The notes below the pieces were generated by a model, which did no database searches, was not told where the DNA came from, and saw only the letters and a program-made list of their open reading frames with translations. Both the position numbers and the translations under genes were made by a program. From Proteles cristata cristata (Eukaryota > Chordata > Mammalia > Carnivora > Hyaenidae): a stretch of 64,000 bases of DNA. Shown here one piece after another: positions 33,766 through 44,832 of the stretch. The stretch is from the NCBI GenBank assembly GCA_017311185.1, contig JAESUZ010003171.1, positions 620,001-684,000 on the forward strand, written 5' to 3'. Within the stretch, counting starts at the first letter, position 1. The number at the start of each line of letters is the position of its first letter.

Positions 33766-34037
33766 AAAGATGGACTCCGTGCATTCCTTGAGGAAGAAAA
33801 CCTGAGTCAGGTTGGCGACCGCTCTCCTTCAGGGGGTGCTGGGTTGCACTTTCTCCTTGTAGGGGCCCAATAAGGATCTTGGGGACCGCAGTTGGAACAC
33901 CCAGCCCAGGCCATCTCTGTCCATGAGAGCAGGCTGTGCGGGTGGCAGACTGAAGCGCCATGTTGGTGCTCCACATGCTGGTGGCTACGTGAGTGTCTCC
34001 CGGCTTCTGCAGGACAAAGCTTGCCGTGACACTTCAG

Positions 34038-34971
34038 TGCCGGAGGCCGCGCCGGCTCCGACAGGTCCAGGGGTCCCTGAAGGATGGACGGTGTCGGCGA
34101 AAGAGAATGAGAGAGCCCCGAGATTCTTTCTGATCACCAGACAGGCGTCTCTGTCCTGTCGGTTTTGGTGTCTTTATTTAAAGGTTCAACAACCATATGA
34201 GGTCAGAGAAAAGGAATTTCTTACAATGAGAGGTCTTTTGTGATATCAATTACAGAAGTATCCCAGTCATGGTGAATTTACAACCAAGAAAATAACAGGA
34301 TGCTCTTAGTGAAAGACAGGATAACATAAAGGTTAGGTTGTATATAGATAAGCTAGGAGTCATTCTGTCTGGCTCTCAAGAGGATGAATGATTCTGAATT
34401 GGTTTGTGTGTGGAAACCATCATGAGGGCCCTAAATGTGTCCATCTTGGCACCTGGGTTTATGTTTTAGCTACTCTTATCTATCCTCATCCCAGTTGCCA
34501 GTGTAAGGGAGGGTGTTTGTGGAATGTAGGCCCTGAGGAAGCGACTGCCATACATCACCAATTAGTAAGTTAAGTTCGGTACTTATCTGTACTTTAACTA
34601 TAAATTAGGCTCTTCTGATATGGGGCCAGGCTCAATAGTAACTCTTGTGTTCTTAACCCCCTTTATTATCTAAGTCTTGGATCTGCAAGGCCCATAGGAA
34701 GAGCCTTTTGACAATCGCCCATAGAGCTTTCATCTAAAGTCTCTTTCGTAAAGGCAGGAATATGCTTTTCCTTATGAGGTATCTGTATTCCAAATATGGG
34801 TCTGATATGGAATATTGGGAGGCCTAGTCAATACCAGCAGGCTCATTTCCAACATGAACCAGTAGTAGCAGAAGGAGATACTAGTCTTCGTTTCTCATGG
34901 CAGAAGCTGTGCAAACATTGCCATTTCCTTGCTGTGACTGCCATCCAGAGAGGCCGGTGCGGCTCCCGGCA
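34038..34971 (-). repeat. 3' LTR of the provirus
   Basis: 934 bp, TG...CA ends. The minus-strand AATAAA lies at 34173-34178. It is about 98% like the other LTR except for a strongly different block at roughly 34540-34685. Confidence 0.95.
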
Positions 34972-34973
34972 TA

Positions 34974-34985
34974 TCCCCCTTTTTT
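34974..34985 (-). other. polypurine tract
   Basis: On the minus strand reads AAAAAAGGGGGA, two bases from the LTR. It is the plus-strand DNA primer site and confirms the element's orientation. Confidence 0.9.
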
Positions 34986-35249
34986 ATTATATATTTTTTT
35001 AAAGGACTGGAAGGAGACAAAGGACAATTAATGTGGCTATAAAAAGAAAGCTACGATTACTGACAAAATTATGGAATCCATCTAGAAAGGACATTGCTAT
35101 CTGGGAAGGAAAAACAAAAGGTAGTAGAATAGGGGAAATATCAAGGAAGACAGGACCTGCAGCAGACAGAGGTCTGTTCCCATAATCACAAAGGGAGAGG
35201 TGCAATAGGAGGCTGAAAAATCAAACCTATGCCCAGTAATCATGTATTC

Positions 35250-35760
35250 TATTCTGGCATGCAATTTAGGCCAGACACGTACGTGGGCCCATTGGACTTT
35301 TCTTACGTCATCTAGCAGGCGCTGATCTTCAACCTCGGTAGTCACCTGTGTTTGGAGGTTGGGAATGATGGGAGGGGTCATCCCAAACATGATTTCAAAA
35401 GGAGTTAACCACATCTGATAGGAGGAGTTGCCCACCCTATAGAGTGCAAAGGGGAGGGGAGCCACCCAGTTTCCTCCAGTCTCCAAGGTCAATTTAGTTA
35501 AGGTCTCTTTTAGGGTTCTAATTATTATTATTATTTTTTTTTTTTGTCCTGAACTCTGGGGTTTGTACACACAATGTAATTTCCAATTAATCCCCAGGGC
35601 CGTGGCTAAATTCTGGCTTACTTTGGACACAAATGCAGGTCTGTTTTCTGACCCTATCATCTGAGGAAAGCCATACCTTATGAAGATGTCTTTTAGGAAT
35701 TATTTTGGCCATGATTTGGGCAGTCTCATGTTTGGCTGTGAGCCCTCGGCGGGTGGTGGT
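35250..35760 (-). pseudogene. pol: gammaretrovirus-like integrase remnant (pol)
   Basis: Integrase joins viral DNA to host DNA. The minus-strand frame (within 35097-35660) shows RPAFVSKVSQ, then PQSSGQ and TLKETLTKLTLETGG, and LTPFEIMFG, in the order of the catalytic core and following region of gammaretroviral integrases. A frame change near 35690 separates an ETAQIMAKI segment upstream. The usual Asp-Asn before the Gly-Pro/Arg-Pro site reads Glu-Asn here, and the Glu side of the active site falls in a low-complexity insert near 35520-35540 (AAT/T runs). The zinc-binding N-terminus and C-terminal domain are missing. It is much closer to gammaretroviruses than to the betaretrovirus-like gag of the same element. 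Confidence 0.85.
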
Positions 35761-35774
35761 TTCTCAGCCCCTTG

Positions 35775-36104
35775 GTAGGCGTTCTTCTTTATCAAGGGCC
35801 GTTACTTTACTGTGGAGATCCCGGAGTTAGCCATCCGCAACGATGAGGAGCTCAACAAGCTGCTGGATCCAAGGTTAAATCCCGCATTTGGTGTCAGTGG
35901 CGTTTCAGGCAGGCCATCAAGTGCTTGGTGGTCGGCGATGGGTGAGTGTGCCGCGCAGAGGCTGCAGGTTGGGCGATGGCCCCGGAGATCTTGCCAGGGC
36001 TGGGCACACAGCTCCGAGGACGTGGGAGCGGCGGGGGTGCGGGAGCCTGCTCGCGGCTGGGCAGGGCGGCCCTCACGCCCTGACATCCCTAACGCACGCT
36101 CCTT
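35775..36104 (+). other. host-derived patch: H2A and RAC exon fragments
   Basis: GC-rich block of about 330 bp on the strand opposite the retroviral genes. 35824-35866 encodes ELAIRNDEELNKLL, the C-terminal helix region of histone H2A. 35907-35941 encodes RQAIKCLVVGDG, the start of a RAC-family GTPase (normally Met at the first position) up to the P-loop. It is followed at 35942 by a good splice donor (gtgagt) at the place where RAC exon 1 ends, then ~160 bp of GC-rich intron-like sequence. The 40 bp between the two fragments is unidentified. Neither fragment can make a protein. Confidence 0.75.
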
Positions 36105-36320
36105 AGAATGTTGAGTCCAGTGTCCATTAGGAACTTAATGGATTTCCCTTTTAATTTTAGGGTTACCCTGGGCTTGGGGAGGGCTGCCGAACCCCATTTC
36201 CCTTAGTCATTGTCATCTCCCATTACTAGAGTGGGAGCTTTAGACTTTTTCTTGGGGCAATCTTTAGCCCAATGTCCTTCTTCTTTGCAGTAGGTGCATT
36301 GATTTTTGCCCAGGCAGGGG
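36105..36320 (-). pseudogene. gag-pro: gammaretrovirus-like nucleocapsid and protease start
   Basis: Minus strand: one CCHC zinc knuckle ([15 protein letters not shown], near 36255-36300), an acidic stretch, a stop, then the protease N-terminus RVTLKLKGKSI...FLMDTG. The active-site Asp-Thr-Gly is present, but the next residues are not the usual ones and the sequence stops at the patch (36104). A single knuckle distinguishes it from the two-knuckle betaretrovirus-like gag at 39.9-41.6 kb. Confidence 0.8.
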
Positions 36321-36880
36321 CGCCCTTCGAGCCGCTGAGAGTTCTCCTTACCTTCTTCTCTTGAAGCCAACTGCCTGAGGCGTCTTTTCGGGTCCTCTAG
36401 CTTAGCAGTTGCCCGAGTAGGATCTTGGCTAGACCTTGGTTTTATCTCTTTTCAGCTTTTATCTGTTTATCCTCTGCAATTTCCCTGTTGCTCTATACCC
36501 TTTCTGCCACGGCCACTAGATCTTGAAGGCTCTTTTTCTTTTTCTTTTTCTTTTATTTTTTATATTATTTATATATTTTTTAGGTGATCTAATTTCTGAA
36601 GTTTTCTCCGAATGTTGGGGGCAGACTGATAAAAGCCATGGCCATTGCAGCTAGGTTTGCTGGGGTCTCAGGATCCATAGGGGTGTACTGGCGGAATGCC
36701 TCTATTATACTCTTAAGGAATGTTGCGGGGCTTTCCTCTGGTCCCTGACTGACAATGTAGGCTTGCGAGCCGCAGCCTCGAGACCTGCCAATAGAGTCTG
36801 GCGGTAGACTAAGAGACTCTCCTTACCTTCAGCCTGGTTGTAGTCCCAATCCAGCTGTGCCAGGGGAAACCTAGCATCAA
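36321..36880 (-). pseudogene. gag: gammaretrovirus-like capsid C-terminal part
   Basis: Minus strand, in two or three frames: LDWDYNQAEG...LLVYRQTLLAGL, a major-homology-region-like QGPEESPATFL, then EAFRQYTPMDPETPA, which are characteristic of gammaretroviral capsid. Further down, a charged linker leads to the zinc knuckle. Frameshifts near 36780 and a T-rich insertion at 36530-36590 break it. It adjoins env sequence at about 36885, an order no intact retrovirus has. Confidence 0.8.
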
Positions 36881-36887
36881 TTCAAGC

Positions 36888-37600
36888 CTAATAGCCCTTG
36901 CAAAAAGGAGGTTGCAACCTGTGAAAGAGAGACAAAGGTAGAGGATGCATTAATAGCCTGAATCTGTTCATGAAGGGTTTGGACATCAATGCTAAGATTA
37001 GAGTGATTCCAAATACCAAGTAGATGATTTTGGATATTCTCCCAAGTGTGGGTGGTATCATTATGTTGGAGGGGAGTAACATAGATCCAACTATACTCCT
37101 AGTGACATCGAAGAGCCAAACGAGATTTTAGAAAACTTGATTCATTTCCGATAAACAGTACTGCCTCTTCTAAGGCATTAACTTAGTGTCTAATTTCCTG
37201 TCAATTATTTCTTGAGTGGCCAATGCAAAAGAGACATTTCTAGTTAACTGGTCAACGTGTTGGGCTGTATGTACTTCCTGATCAAGGGAGACAGTGGAAG
37301 TAGCCAGAGACCCTATGATGGCAATCAGTGCAGTAATACCCAATATTTGGCATGTGAGAGCATAATTGATCTCCTGCAAGACCTGTAACTCACAATCATC
37401 ATACTAAGGAAGGGTTAGGTTAACAGAATCTTCCATTGAAAGTGTGTTGCTTTTACAAACTGGGTCTAGATTAGAGACAATACCAACAGAACATAAGAGG
37501 AAGGTTAGTATAAAGAGGAATTTTTTGCTGTTTCCCCAGCTTTCTGAACAAAGAGTAAGGACAGTTTATCTTATCAGACCGGTGATTCCTCAAGCTTCTG
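36888..37600 (-). pseudogene. env: betaretrovirus-like env remnant (leader joined to TM ectodomain)
   Basis: Env fuses virus and cell membranes. Here the minus strand shows a signal-like hydrophobic stretch (FLFILTFLLCSVGIV, near 37500-37540), a short linker, then TM subunit features: a hydrophobic GITALIAIIGSLA fusion-peptide-like segment, a heptad-rich region (37170-37300), an LALRCH cysteine region and a downstream helical segment to 36888. Nearly all of the surface subunit is absent, and a stop lies near 37400. It cannot encode a working envelope. Confidence 0.7.
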
Positions 37601-38060
37601 CGGTGGTGCGTAGACCAGCCAGCTTCCTGGGTGTGGCTGGAGCATGGCTGGAGATCTCAGGGGTCAGTGTCCTTTTGAGGGTCAGTTTAAGCTGGTTGAC
37701 TGGATCTGGATCACCTCACCAGGCTGACCGTTCATCTGAGTTGGCCTACTTAACTCCAGAGCGAAGGGTCCATGGGGTGATGCCTGAAACTTTAAGAGCT
37801 GAATCCTTTGGTTATATATCTGAAGTACACCTGTAAGTCTTTGAAAGGGGTGAGTGACCCCCATCCTTCGAATAAACCAGATATCCTGGGTTTATTTGGG
37901 GTGGGTTTAGGGAGGATATCGTTTGCATATTTAAAGATACACCCAGTTTTCCTGTTGTTTCATGCATTCCATTTGGAAACAGGAGGGGGAGGGGAAGGCA
38001 GAAGAGGCAAGGTGACAGCAGGAGGCAGAGAAAAAGAATTAGCAGTTTAAAATTTTGTGA
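37601..38060 (-). pseudogene. pol end/env start region, degraded
   Basis: A 60-codon minus frame (37682-37864; HPFQRLTGVLQIYNQRIQ) resembles the overlapping pol-end/env-start zone of betaretroviruses. The rest is stop-ridden. The assignment rests on position more than on motifs. Confidence 0.4.
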
Positions 38061-38965
38061 GCTCAGAGGGAGGAGTAGACTTCAGGTTTCTTTTGTTTTG
38101 TTTTGTTTTGTTTATGTCAGTAGATTTTAGGCAGTCCGTGTCAGTCTGGAGAAGATAAGGAATTTCCCCGAAACAAAAGCAAAAGGAGTTTCGGCAGCTG
38201 CTTGGGAATATTCCTTAAAGTCCCCCGTCCCGAGGTAGACTAGCCACAGTTGGCTCCAATTATAGCCATTAATCTGGGAAATGAATGAGTGAGAAGCCCT
38301 TACATCTATTAGGCAGAGGAACAGACAGTTAACATCTCCTTCAGTCTGAATTTACCTCAGCCAGACCAATAAGGTCCCCTTCATGAGGTTTTTCCGGATG
38401 TTGGTTGGGCACTCTTTCAGTGAGGCAATGTCACAAAGACAGACAAAGGGTGGGGGGTGCCCCCTCTAATGAGGAGACCAGTCAGATGCCAGTTTGGTCA
38501 TGTCCCAAAAGAACTTAAGGGATGCTTAGCTGTAGGGGTCTCAGCTTTGGAAACTATTCCGATGCCACCATAGACTGTATGCCGTTCACCGCAGAATCAG
38601 AGACAGGCACATTTAGACTCCGTAGGCTTTTGGGACCTTAAGGGTGCCCACCGGTGGAGCCACAGAGTTGAACCCAGCAGGCAAGCCAGACCGAATTGCA
38701 TATTCACACTTACATACATACCAGAGGTTATTATATTTCCTCCCACAGAAATCCTACAGATAAGACTAACAACGACAATGACAATGACAAACAGGACAAA
38801 ACAGATACAGAAGTGGCCACAAAACAGGTTTATGAGTTTGCTGAAGGGCCAACCGACGTCTCTGTGTGCCCTGGGGGAGGGAAATAGCTGCGTCCAGCCT
38901 TCCATTTAATCCCCCAGACAGAAGCACATGCGCATTTAGAATCCAGATGATAAGTTGATTTACCT
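38061..38965 (-). pseudogene. env 3'-like segment and unassigned retroviral sequence
   Basis: The minus frame 38597-38905 has a 20-residue hydrophobic stretch (CICFVLFVIVIVVVSLIC) like a TM membrane anchor. It lies upstream of the TM ectodomain piece, so the order is scrambled. 38061-38560 has an open stretch (VYLGTGDFKEYSQAAAE) that I cannot place. Confidence 0.4.
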
Positions 38966-39185
38966 CCTTTTTTCCCTAATAACAAAAATGGGAGTATTCA
39001 TGGATTATCGGAAGGCTCGCTATGTCCTTCTGTAAGCTGTTGTTCCATAAGTTGTACTGCTGCTATTTTTTGAGAAGGGCCACTGTTCTACTCAAACAGG
39101 AGTATCTGATTTTTAAACTATTGGGTCAGCAGCAACAGGAACAATGGCCCCTTTTACAAGTGTGGTTAGCCAATCCCTTTTTTGG
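38966..39185 (-). pseudogene. pol: reverse transcriptase N-terminal remnant
   Basis: The minus strand carries, across frames, VEQWP, QLMEQQLTEGH and NPWNTPIFVI-like pieces, the opening of a betaretroviral RT. It is broken by a frameshift near 39070 and stops before the catalytic palm, so the polymerase active site is absent. Confidence 0.7.
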
Positions 39186-39970
39186 GTTTTATATTTATGG
39201 AAGTTATTATACCCTGTTGTGTCTGGTCTAACCTTTTGTTGGGATGAAGCTGCATTTGTAACATCTGATTAGTAGCCTTGTCATTTGGGGTGGAAAGTAA
39301 CATTCTCATTTGGGATAAAATATCTCGTCCCCATAAAGAAAAAGGGATGGAAGGAATAACATAAGGACAAAAAGTTCCTGAATTGTTTTCCTCATCTGAC
39401 CATTTTAGGATTTGAGAGCTTTTTGCCACATTAGAAGCCTGTCCTATGCCCACGAGAGTAGCAGGAGCTTTCTGAGTCGGCCAAGTTGAGGGCCAGTCTT
39501 TTCCTGCAATGCAGGAGACATCTGCTCCAGTGTCTAGGAGCCCTTGAATAGGAATTCCCTGAACCTGCAATACTTTCATGGGCCTAGAGGCTTTAATCTC
39601 CTGTATCCAAAAGGCCATATCGCTAGAGCCAAAGCCTCCTTCTCCTCTGGGTGCATCAGTGGCATCCTTTCCTATGTGATAATAAGGCAATAATAGTAAC
39701 TGGGCAATTCTCTGATCCTTAAAAATTTGCTTGGTGGAAGAAGGAGGAGAGACCAGCACTTTGATCTCTCCCTGATAATCAGCATCAACCACCCCAGGGA
39801 TTATAGTGATCCCCTGAAGGGAGATGGAGCTCGTCCCAGTATTAATCCCACTACCCCAGGGGGCAGGGGCCCCTTTACACCAGTAGGAATAGTTACAGGA
39901 GGTGAATCAGGGGTTAGTATTGTGCTGGTGGTGGAACGGAGGTCCAGTCCTGCGCTGCCTGGGGTTGCTC
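39166..39970 (-). pseudogene. pro: dUTPase-protease (pro), frameshifted
   Basis: In betaretroviruses pro encodes a dUTPase fused to the aspartic protease. dUTPase signatures run from about 39965 (AGLDLRST), through PPGVVGLILGR, to VVDADYQGEIKVLV and RIAQLLLLPY, ending with a Gly-rich GGFGSSD. A frameshift near 39830 splits it. The protease follows in the 39166-39792 frame with its active site (GLLDTGAD, about 39522-39545) and a late GRDIL motif, so its catalytic signature is preserved. The 5' end overlaps the gag end in another frame, as expected where ribosomal frameshifting would have been used. Confidence 0.85.
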
Positions 39971-41593
39971 TATAGAGCTCGGAGACTGACTGAAATTGGT
40001 GAATGGGTTGAGCGGGCTGAGGGATGTTGCCCCAATTAGTGTCGTGGCCTGGGGCTGGCCCCTCAATCCGTTTCCCTGGTCCTGAGATTTTTGGAGATTG
40101 GTTCCCAGTGGTTGGCCATTTTTGTGAAATTTAGATTTACAATCTTTGGCCCAGTGAAAGCCCTTTTCACACTTAGGACATATAGTCCTGGGTCTGTTGA
40201 TATTATTTATCACCTGAGGAACAGGTGCAGTTGGCAGAGAGGTATTTGCCTTTTTTTGTGGGGCAGTCCCTACTGAAATGACCCATTTGCCCACAAGAAT
40301 AACAATTAAATCTTGAGGAAGGTTTTTCACTCTTAGTACCTCCTGACTGCCCTAAGGACCTGACATATTGAGGGTATGTTTCTCCCTTTAAAGCTGCTGC
40401 GATGGCCACACCCTGGATAAAGGCAGGACTTACATCTGCACATTGTTTGACATAATCAGTTAAGGTGCCAGTTTTCCTTATGGGTCGTAATGAAGACTGG
40501 CAGGTAGAAGAGGCGTTTTCAAATGCTAGTTGTTTAATGAGAATGTCCGCTGCCTCATCATTAGTTATCACTCTTCTAACAGCTTGTATGAGTCTAGATA
40601 CAAAATCCTCATAGCTTTCATCCGATCGTTGTCGGATTTCACCCAAGGTAGCGGCCCTGCCTGTTGCAATTGGCAAAGCTCTCCATGCGTTATAGGCACA
40701 ATCAGTGACCTGCTGTAAGGTGGCTTTGTCAAGATACATTTGAGCTTGAGCAGTGTAATAATCACCCTCACCTAGGAGTTTATCGAGGGTAATGTCTCTC
40801 CTATTTGTTCTTTTATTTATGGCCACCTTTTTTCTAGCGAGATCATCATATTCTGCTTTCCATAGCAGGTATTGGCCTCCTGACAGGCATGCTTTTGCAA
40901 CTTGAATTCAGTCATAAGGTGTCATCCAGCGGGATATTAGGGCCTCTAGCAATGTAAGTGTATAGGGAGCAAGTGAACCATATTCGGTACAGGCAGTTTT
41001 TAGTTCCTTAAGAATCTTATAGGGAAGAGGTTCCCAAGAAGGGTCCTCATCAAATTCTCCCCCAAGAGCAATGGGGAAGCAGCGAACAAAATCTGTATCT
41101 CCCTCTTTTTCTGCCTAACGGCGGCTCTGAGCCCTACTCCTTTTGAAGGTGGCATGGGAGGAAGTGGCCCAGATGGAGAGAAGTTCCCTGTATTCTGAAC
41201 AGGGAAAGCCCAGTTGTTTGATGTTAAATTTGAAACCTTCCTAGTGGTGGAATCAGGGACAGTCCCTGAGTCCACCTTATTATCATTTTGGGGGGCGCTG
41301 GGCTTGAAGATTCCAGAAGTATCTTTTGAGGTGTCCAACGCCCCCTTTATAATGGTCAATAGAGAGAGAATTTCAATCGGGATTGTTTGAGGACATTGTT
41401 TAATTTCATCCTCAACTTTGTTCCAGATCTCTATATTAACAGTTCCTTCATCAGGGAACCAGGGGCACAGTTTTTGAACAAAATGTAAAAATCGAGCAAT
41501 TTGTTGAGAAGATGCCTTTGCCCCTTTTTTTGTAAGCACATTCCGTATCACATCTATAAAGAGCCTCCTTTCCTTAGACTCTTTATGGCCCAT
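39914..41593 (-). pseudogene. gag: betaretrovirus-like gag, broken
   Basis: Gag forms the virus core. The start is set by ATG at 41593 with MGHKES, a myristoylation-type N-terminus. Matrix runs to about 41240 and includes the CPWFPDEGTV motif. A Pro-rich linker (PLPPMPPSKG) follows, then capsid with a WEPLPYKIL region near 41030 and the major homology region (SDESYEDFVSRL, near 40610). Nucleocapsid has two CCHC knuckles, CYSCGQMGHFSRDC (about 40250-40300) and CPKCEKGFHWAKDC (about 40130-40180). Breaks: a frame change near 41110, a stop near 40905 and a frame change between the two knuckles. The family is closest to MMTV/HERV-K-like (class II) viruses. Confidence 0.88.
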
Positions 41594-41737
41594 AACTTCT
41601 CAAAAACAGTTCTTTGATTATCCACCAACTAACCCTACTTATCTTATGCAGGGGGGTCCACGGCACCCTATGGTGGAATCCTAACCGTCCCGACTAATGC
41701 AACAAAAGAAACATAATTTAAAGAGATTACCTTCAGG

Positions 41738-41755
41738 TCCACTCTTCGGGCACCA
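41738..41755 (-). other. primer binding site, lysine-tRNA-like
   Basis: On the minus strand TGGTGCCCGAAGAGTGGA, three bases inside the 5' LTR. It most resembles the tRNA-Lys3 site with a few changes (position 4 and the middle). Lys primers are usual for betaretroviruses. Confidence 0.7.
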
Positions 41756-41758
41756 CTA

Positions 41759-42679
41759 TGCCGGAGGCCACGCCGGCTCCGACAGGTCCAGGGGTCCCTG
41801 AAGGATGGACGGTGTCGGCGAAAGAGAATGAGAGAGCCCCGAGATTCTTTCTGATCACCAGGCAGGCATCTCTGTCCTGTCGGTTTTGGTGTCTTTATTT
41901 AAAGGTTCAACAACCATATGAGGTCAGAGAAAAGGAATTTCTTACAATGAGAGGTCTTTTGTGATATTAATTGCAGAATTATCCCAGTCATGGTGAATTT
42001 ACAACCAAGGAAATAACAGGATGCTCTTAGTGAAAGACAGGATAACATATAGGTTAGGTTGTATATAGATAAGCTAGGAGTCATTCTGTCTGGCTCTCAA
42101 GAGGACGAATGATTCTGAATTGGTTTGTGTGTGGAAACCATCATGAGGGCCCTAAATGTGTCCATCTTGGCACCTGGGTTTATGTTTTAGCTACTCTTAT
42201 CTATCCTCATCCCAGTTGCCAGTGTAAGGGAGGGTGTTTGTGGAATGTAGGCCTTGAGGAAGGGACTGCTATGCTTCACCAATTAGCAAAGATATATGTA
42301 GTAACTTATGTTCTGCCCTGAAATAGGCTGTTTGTGTCAGGGCCAGGCTCAGTTGTAACTCTTGTGTTCTTAACCCCTTAAGTCTTGAATCTGCAAGGCC
42401 CATAGGAAGAGCCTTTTGACAATCGCCCATAGAGCTTTCATCTAAAGTCTCTTTCGTAAAGGCAGGAATATGCTTTTCTTTATGAGGTATCTGTATTCAG
42501 AATATGGGTCTGATATGGAATATTGGGAGGCCTAGTCAATACCAGCAGGCTCATTTCCAACATGAACCAGTAGTAGCAGAAGGAGATACTAGTCTTCATT
42601 TCTCATGGCAGAAGCTGTGCAAACATTGCCATTTCCTTGCTGTGATTGCCATCCAGAGAGGCCGGTGCGGCTCCCGGCA
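41759..42679 (-). repeat. 5' LTR of the provirus
   Basis: 921 bp, TG...CA ends. The minus-strand AATAAA lies at 41894-41899. It pairs with 34038-34971. Confidence 0.95.
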
Positions 42680-44832
42680 CTCATGCACATGCATATAAGC
42701 ATAGATACAGTAGAACTCATCAACAAATTGGGGAGCACAGGTAGGGAATCCTTGGATGTCTGCTTTGATAGATCCCAGAATAGGAATGCCTGGTGCAAGG
42801 GTGAACTATATGGTGACCCAGATACATCATCACCCCACCACAGTAACAATTATCATAATAATGACCCCTGGTTGCTATGAAAGATTAAACCATGTCTTTT
42901 GTCCTTTCTTAAGAAGGCAGGTAGATGGGTGATTCCTTTGTTGGTTAGAATTTTCAAATAAAGTAACCTTTTCTTTAATTAAGTTCTATAGAATAAACTT
43001 TAATGGTAAAAATGCTATTTATTACAATGACCGTTTACTCCTTGACAGTAATTAAGGAACAGTTGTAAAATGAAAGACCACCTGTCCAGAGTTACCTTCT
43101 GCATGTGGGAGGCTTACAGCAAGGAGCTATTCTGCAAATTCTACCACCTCCTCTCATGAAGTCAGAATGCCCTGCATGGTTTAGGACTGTACGCATTTCT
43201 GAGAAATATTAAATTGCTCCACACTCTACCAGTAACATCTTGAAATATAGTATTTCTCCATCCCCTTCCTCATCACATGCACTACCTGAGACCTCATCAT
43301 CAAAGAGGAATTTGATTGGAGTCTGAATTTCACATAATCATAAATCTCTTTTTGTAAAGATGAGAAAACAGAGGCTCTAAAGAGGAAGGGTAGTGATTCT
43401 CCTAAATCTCCAGTAAGCATGATATTGGAAATGAAAGCCAATCCAGTGCTCTCAGACTCAAACCACTGGGAGTACAGTTCCCTGGGATTTAGCAAACCTG
43501 TGGTAACTGCTTTCAGGCGGAAAGCAGACTGAAAACAACATTATTGACCTCTGTTAGAGAAAAGCCTGCTCACAGATCTAACAAAAGTTCATGTCTAATG
43601 GATGTGTTCTTCAGTGCCTCTCTGTAAGGCAAGATGCCTTTAACAGCATCTTTGAAATTATAGTACTTTGTTCTAGTTTCACAGTAAATGCTCCGATGGC
43701 TGTGTAGGCTCTCTTGGGTTTCTTCTTTCTTTGCTGTGCTGTGAAAACACACACTGCATATACATTGTTATTATCATTGTTGCTAAGAAGGAAGAGAGCA
43801 TGAGTTTCTACCCCATCATCTGTGCAGAGCAGAGGCAGTGAATCCTACTGGAGCATAATAACAATCTATAAGTAAACCAGTCATGGTAAAATCTATCAAA
43901 AATGTGGCAATTTACGAAAATATGTCCCTCAAGCACACCAAAGTTGTCATCAAAGTGAGTTAGCTGCCAATTAACTTCTACATCTTGCACAAAGGGCACA
44001 GAATTCTAGTGTAAAAATAAAACCAGTTAATGCATATCTGCTGTCTATGAACAATAAATCAGAAACAAAAATGAACATACCACTTGGCGCTTTTTCAGGA
44101 TGTTACCATCTTATGGACTGCTGCTTTTCAGGCTTCTGATTTAGAAAGATTAGTTTCAAAGATGACAATAATAAAGATATTTTTGTCTAAAAACTTGAAC
44201 TCCAAAGTTCAGCCATTGAACACTTAATTGGGTGCCAAATATGTTCTAGGCACTGGCTCACAAAAAGCAGGACAGTTTGTTAAAAACTCTTAGCACTGCT
44301 ATTCATTTCTGTCACAGATTATATTCAGTGTATTTATAGTTTCAACAAATCATTCCATTTTCACATTGAGCATTCAGTTAATTCACTTCTGGAAAATTCA
44401 CCTATAACCCAAATAGTGTGTAGAGGATGCTACATTTGCCTTAGAGATGGAGGGGGAGTGGGAGAGGGAGAGAATGAAATGGTCAGGAAAGGATATATTT
44501 GTACTGGCCCTTGAGGGATACTTAGGTTTCTATCATTCCCAGCCAACCTATTAGTGTGTTCTTGTTCTGCTTCACTGATTCAGCTGAATTCTCTCAAAAA
44601 CAAGGAAATAAACAAAAATAATAACAACTATCTCTGTAACCTGCCTCCCAATCCTGAGCTTACTCACTCTGATGAGTTTCTGCAACACTACTGTCTGTAG
44701 CACAAAAGGTTGCACATCTTACCAGCAACCTTCCATTATCCCAGTATCGTGGGGAGTCTCTTGAAGTTTTATGACTGACTCTAATATAAGACTTTCACAT
44801 CACACTTTGCTTGTAAGCAAAGCATGTAGTCA
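42680..44832. other. unique AT-rich sequence
   Basis: No gene seen. Weak MIR-like (43355-43420) and L2-like (44205-44270) traces. Confidence 0.45.

Follow-up and report, generated by a model that had tools for sequence, protein, structure and literature searches.

Host-like H2A and RAC sequences inside an endogenous retrovirus of Proteles cristata

The window (the whole 64,000-nucleotide stretch of Proteles cristata cristata DNA that was analyzed, contig JAESUZ010003171.1, positions 620,001 to 684,000) contains an element at 34038-42679 that we read as a class II (beta-like) provirus on the minus strand. Its ends are a pair of direct repeats, each about 0.93 kb long, which match at 93.7% identity: the 5' LTR (41759-42679, minus strand) and the 3' LTR (34038-34971, minus strand). 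With gaps set aside, 38 of the 916 aligned bases differ between the repeats (K2P 0.043), and with assumed rates of 1.5-3e-9 this corresponds to an age of about 7-14 million years. By eye, there is no evident 6-bp target-site duplication beside the LTRs (34030-34037 and 42680-42690). Remnants of Gag and of a dUTPase-protease (39166-41599, minus strand) match Gag_p10, Gag_p24, Gag_p24_C, zf-CCHC, zf-CCHC_5, dUTPase, and RVP, and all of these Pfam matches exceed the curated cut-offs. A remnant of the env transmembrane region (36877-37403, minus strand) has two frames that match Pfam GP41, one at E = 1.3e-8 (above the curated cut-off) and one at E = 7.7e-5 (below it). No beta-type reverse transcriptase (RT) was recognized by eye among the frames of the window. 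Three frames between the protease and env match no retroviral Pfam family, and neither does a putative env tail frame (34999-35220).

A gammaretrovirus-like fragment is inside this provirus, which the original prediction had overlooked. The fragment adjoins the env remnant of the beta-like provirus and has the identical orientation. From the fragment to the 3' LTR, the sequence looks env-like by eye, and the fragment may lie inside env. (We dropped an env-like duplication on either side of the fragment as a sign of its entry, as 13 of 300 shuffles scored equally.) The fragment reads in the order Gag_p30, zinc knuckle, protease start, then a foreign patch, then integrase core. The capsid, zinc-knuckle, and protease-start remnants occupy 36105-36881 (minus strand), with Gag_p30 in two frames (E = 8e-12) and zf-CCHC (E = 4.5e-7). 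Within them, the protease remnant (36202-36105, minus strand) aligns with 3nr6, a protease of the XMRV type, as far as the DTG motif (E = 0.0017), and it matches Pfam RVP at E = 0.011, which is below the curated cut-off. The integrase remnant (35225-35755, minus strand, both edges approximate) matches PFV integrase (E = 1.5e-6), Pfam rve (E = 0.0008, which misses the curated cut-off), and other proteins. Taken as a whole, 34038-42679 is a beta/gamma mosaic: a class II provirus with a gamma fragment that runs from capsid to integrase and has most of pol missing.

In the protein search with the integrase remnant, 140 of 226 candidates had E <= 0.001. The 120 matches listed include three POL1 proteins of Crocuta crocuta, with identities of 78% (44% of the query covered), 72% (50% covered), and 45% (62% covered), and among the matches listed are also four named felid proteins with 52-59% identity over 73% of the query. 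The lowest E-values belong to unnamed proteins. In a further protein search (34/513), a Hyaena hyaena protein had the highest identity (87% over 29%), yet it ranked 33rd by E-value. Two felid models, P0005 (Prionailurus viverrinus) and P0011 (Panthera leo), have a gamma gag p30 part fused to an integrase part, skipping protease and RT; these are possibly gene-prediction artefacts or pol-deleted copies. A SINE is repeated in the window, and its consensus, built from 8 copies, is presumably of the carnivore CAN-SINE type. We dropped the idea of a bat Helitron capture because of this presumed CAN-SINE likeness and because hyena proteins are among the matches.

Between the protease start and the integrase remnant lies a CpG-rich patch at about 35756-36104. 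It contains a fragment of histone H2A and then a piece of RAC exon 1, which continues at a donor site into intron-like sequence. Both host pieces are on the plus strand and the viral genes are on the minus strand, so both pieces are antisense to the provirus. This is the arrangement that had been predicted (a GC-rich patch with host-like pieces on the opposite strand, between gamma-like protease and integrase remnants), and it is borne out by profile and sequence matches; at this level, we consider it confirmed that this endogenous retrovirus contains host-like pieces of H2A and RAC. The GC content (71.6%) and CpG count (15) of the patch are reached by 2 of 3192 windows of 162 bp, both of which are on the patch. 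Its CpG observed/expected ratio is 0.73, versus 0.26-0.41 in the six proviral stretches that were measured. Other searches gave little: with Rfam, there were 4 matches in 35700-36160, all well under the gathering scores; the plus-strand frame of the patch had 13 candidates in the protein search, none with E <= 10; and the frame at 35779-36114 had no match in Pfam.

Viral homology ends at the DTG motif of the protease and restarts in the integrase core. On the right, the minus-strand protease homology extends to DTG and the bases just past it still look gammaretroviral by eye, which puts that edge at about 36105. On the left, an alignment of relatives reads EAHPTKHETAQ or EAFPTKNETAQ, and the minus strand here has KHETAQ with frame damage beyond it, so we place the left edge at about 35750-35756. 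(The frame at this edge, 35763-35587, has no integrase match of its own in PDB or Pfam; the reading of KHETAQ is taken from the alignment.) Hence, of the predicted extent of 35775 to 36104, the end holds and the start is nearer to 35756. The roughly 350 bp of foreign sequence occupies the place of the remaining protease, the RT/RNase H region, and the first part of integrase, a stretch that we take to be about 2.7 kb by MLV sizes. Within 35730-36125, neither A nor T occurs in a run of at least four. No direct repeat of at least 9 nt, the length to which the search was sensitive, flanks the patch, whose edges may be blurred, within 35700-36160; the single 9-nt repeat found is internal to the patch.

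The H2A fragment (35803-35866, plus strand) corresponds to codons 58-65 and 85-98 of H2A.J. Against the human H2A.J coding sequence as printed in PMC5436145, the downstream arm matches at 34 of 37 bases and the upstream arm at 20 of 24, both ungapped. The 60 nt of H2A.J that would separate the arms are absent, with the reading frame preserved. In H2A.J, this stretch is bounded by AGCTGGC and AGCTCGC, as slippage at a short repeat would give. Among 2000 simple shuffles, a single one did as well as the upstream arm, whose reverse complement fell short of the shuffle mean; the arm reads YFTVEIPE versus YLTAEILE in H2A.J. In the downstream arm, LAIRNDEELNKLL is identical in many H2A proteins in PDB; just 1 of the 161 matches at E <= 10 had E < 0.001 because the query has 13 residues. 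By chance, an exact 13-residue match would be expected about 1.6e-5 times in the window, if the proteome is assumed to have 1e7 residues. The prediction of 14 residues of H2A was thus right about the identity of the piece and wrong about its extent: it is longer, it has an internal in-frame gap, and the E in ELAIRN is part of the upstream arm.

The donor is likely a cluster H2A gene. AACGATGAGGAGCTCAACAAG (35839-35859) agrees at all 21 bases with a HIST1H2AI primer printed in PMC7181647, and the H2AX reagents given in PMC3093362, PMC9051074, and PMC8152012 have GAC where the window has GAT. The GAT could alternatively stem from CpG decay. For both host pieces, the donors are assigned from published sequences of human and mouse.

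The RAC piece (35909-35941, plus strand) opens on the G of the start codon, 42 bp past the H2A fragment, and extends as far as the exon edge; this spacing is near the 40 bp that had been predicted. The prediction of a RAC N-terminus that is followed at the exon edge by a donor motif was upheld: QAIKCLVVGDG is encoded at 35910-35942 and GTGAGT is at 35942-35947. We take RAC exon 1 to end at this position and the piece to differ from the gene at one residue, where it has L instead of V, and at one synonymous base. At the DNA level, GCAGGCCATCAAGTGC (35909-35924) is identical to 16 contiguous bases of a published Rac3 guide, versus 15 contiguous bases for the Rac1/2 guide (PMC7348743 gives ATGCAGGCCATCAAGTGTG as the Rac1/2 target and ATGCAGGCCATCAAGTGCG as the Rac3 target). 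The Rac1 and Rac2 primers printed in PMC4728208 carry TGT. With TGC at this place, the piece is of the Rac3 type, on one base.

How surprising is this match? In 64 kb, with both strands counted, chance should give about 1.3 matches of 10 of 11 residues to some protein, so the RAC match would not be convincing alone; in 330 bp, the expectation is about 0.007. (These estimates again assume 1e7 proteome residues.) The 22-residue RAC frame, a query too short to be informative, had no match in PDB. Similarly, GTGAGT occurs 28 times on the plus strand of the window, so that it is informative only through its place. If we require both the 10/11 match and a correctly placed GTRAGT donor, the chance expectation falls to about 3e-6. 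Past the exon edge, the sequence that opens with GTGAGT is rich in GC and CpG and intron-like by its donor motif and composition (35942-36104, plus strand). The 162 bp past the donor are the richest in GC and CpG of any stretch of that length in the window. They are composed as a CpG-island intron would be, and we consider them a candidate RAC intron. With the donor motif retained and the run-on into CpG-rich sequence, the RAC piece looks unspliced.

The left spacer (35756-35802) was considered as H2A.J or as proviral sequence, and both were rejected: its matches to H2A.J and to the rest of the provirus were no better than those of shuffles. In the middle spacer (35867-35908), AAGGTTAAATCCCGC (35871-35885) matches codons 14-18 of H2A.J at 13 of 15 bases. 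As 2 of 100 shuffles did equally well and this was 1 of 12 comparisons, it is a weak hint of a second H2A piece, out of order.

We propose that the patch is probably filler from the repair of a double-strand break, that is, a class 2 templated sequence insertion, which is now a fossil. A double-strand break or a broken fork in gammaretroviral DNA would have led to the loss of much of pol, and filler from two unrelated host genes, either copied or captured as fragments, would have closed the break. The donors would be an H2A gene and a RAC3-type gene, the latter at the boundary of exon 1 and intron 1. We infer DNA repair as the cause, with either RNA or DNA as the template. We would place the event either in the present provirus or, earlier, in a gamma provirus that was later copied into the beta one. 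In the sections of PMC5110952 that we drew on, experimental insertions at breaks are 73-414 bp and are enriched in transcribed sequence, and class 2 events lack target duplications and poly(A). Also, one break can capture several fragments of mixed origin (as described in part of PMC11724301). On the other hand, the gamma fragment is oriented as the beta provirus is, which suggests that viral recombination was part of the history of the element and counts against repair alone.

The original prediction offered two origins: repair filler, or template switching onto co-packaged RNAs during reverse transcription. A host transcript that is acquired by a switch during minus-strand synthesis should give a sense insert. 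We favor filler over such a switch because the host pieces are antisense, the RAC piece appears unspliced, a stretch of pol is missing, and there is no poly(A). The argument from orientation is a modest one, as two random pieces would both be antisense 1 time in 4.

A broader form of the switching idea is retroviral patch repair, in which reverse transcriptase changes templates between beta, gamma, and host RNAs packaged together and a non-homologous junction is bridged by the host parts. The provirus is indeed a beta/gamma mosaic in a single orientation, and patch repair with host sequences is documented for retroviruses (in the parts of PMC4997597 that we used). However, besides being antisense and, for RAC, seemingly unspliced, the host pieces are within the gamma fragment and away from the beta/gamma junctions. 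A plus-strand switch could yield antisense inserts, but this is an extra assumption, and overall we consider patch repair unlikely. A more elaborate version is that beta RNA, gamma RNA, and two host templates (H2A and unspliced RAC3) were combined in a single reverse transcription, and that the chimera then spread to other loci. A plus-strand switch would account for the antisense host pieces, and we still find this version rather improbable.

Returning to repair, the break could have been in a separate gamma provirus, whose RNA, with the patch, later recombined into the beta provirus, so that copies would share the patch. This fits with the gamma sequence on both sides of the host pieces, but we found no second copy in viral contigs (0 matches) or in the window. 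Neither is a fair test, and we give this history only a small chance of being correct. An assembly error that joined unrelated reads seems most improbable: the window was assessed from one assembly, but it contains no N, and the short host pieces diverge from the published genes at some bases, which suggests age (a species difference could also explain this). Finally, LINE-1 copies cellular RNAs to new sites (the class 1 events of PMC5110952, in the sections that we used), but we can practically dismiss the idea that LINE-1 inserted host transcripts into this retrovirus, given the lack of A or T runs of at least 4 and of flanking repeats of at least 9 nt, the viral sequence that is missing at the site, and the intron-like sequence that is retained. 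A LINE-1 event would be expected to bring a poly(A) tail and a target-site duplication of 5 bp or more.

The patch looks real and of an ordinary, known kind. If it is repair filler, then it is a readable germline case of a templated insertion from two genes, and it helps to ask which loci serve as sources of filler in germ cells; in this case, the donors would be two GC-rich genes, one of them caught at an exon/intron edge. If instead several proviral copies share the patch, then host sequence entered a retrovirus antisense to its genome, which, if true, is not predicted by the usual model of minus-strand template switching.

Among titles and the beginnings of abstracts, we recognized nothing about this locus or about such an insert in a hyena retrovirus, and no paper matched a RAC3 DNA string or the RAC protein start. 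As for known systems, our comparison with host-gene transduction relies on details of acute transforming viruses that we take as given. Unlike in transduction, the host sequence here is antisense, tiny, and partly intron-like, with no host frame that the virus could use. The likeness is that host exon sequence is present in a provirus, as in the acute transforming viruses that are mentioned in PMC4997597. Compared with retroviral patch repair, as described in the sections of that paper that we used, the locus is similar in having host scraps in a mosaic provirus, and it differs in that the pieces are antisense and one is apparently unspliced; patch repair by template switching onto a host transcript in minus-strand synthesis would be expected to give a sense insert. 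A third close system is the class 2 templated insertions of Onozawa and Aplan (PMC5110952). In the parts of that paper that we drew on, these have some hundred bp of filler from transcribed, distant loci, without poly(A), in a repair-type setting. The patch is similar in size, and its source loci and setting are probably of the same sort; its lack of poly(A) fits class 2 rather than the LINE-1 events of class 1. They differ from it in that the patch has two source genes (with donors inferred from human and mouse sequences) and lies inside an endogenous retrovirus, and in that a class 2 insertion is expected to show repair-type junctions, with microhomology, a microdeletion, or added bases, whereas the loss of viral sequence at the patch is far longer.
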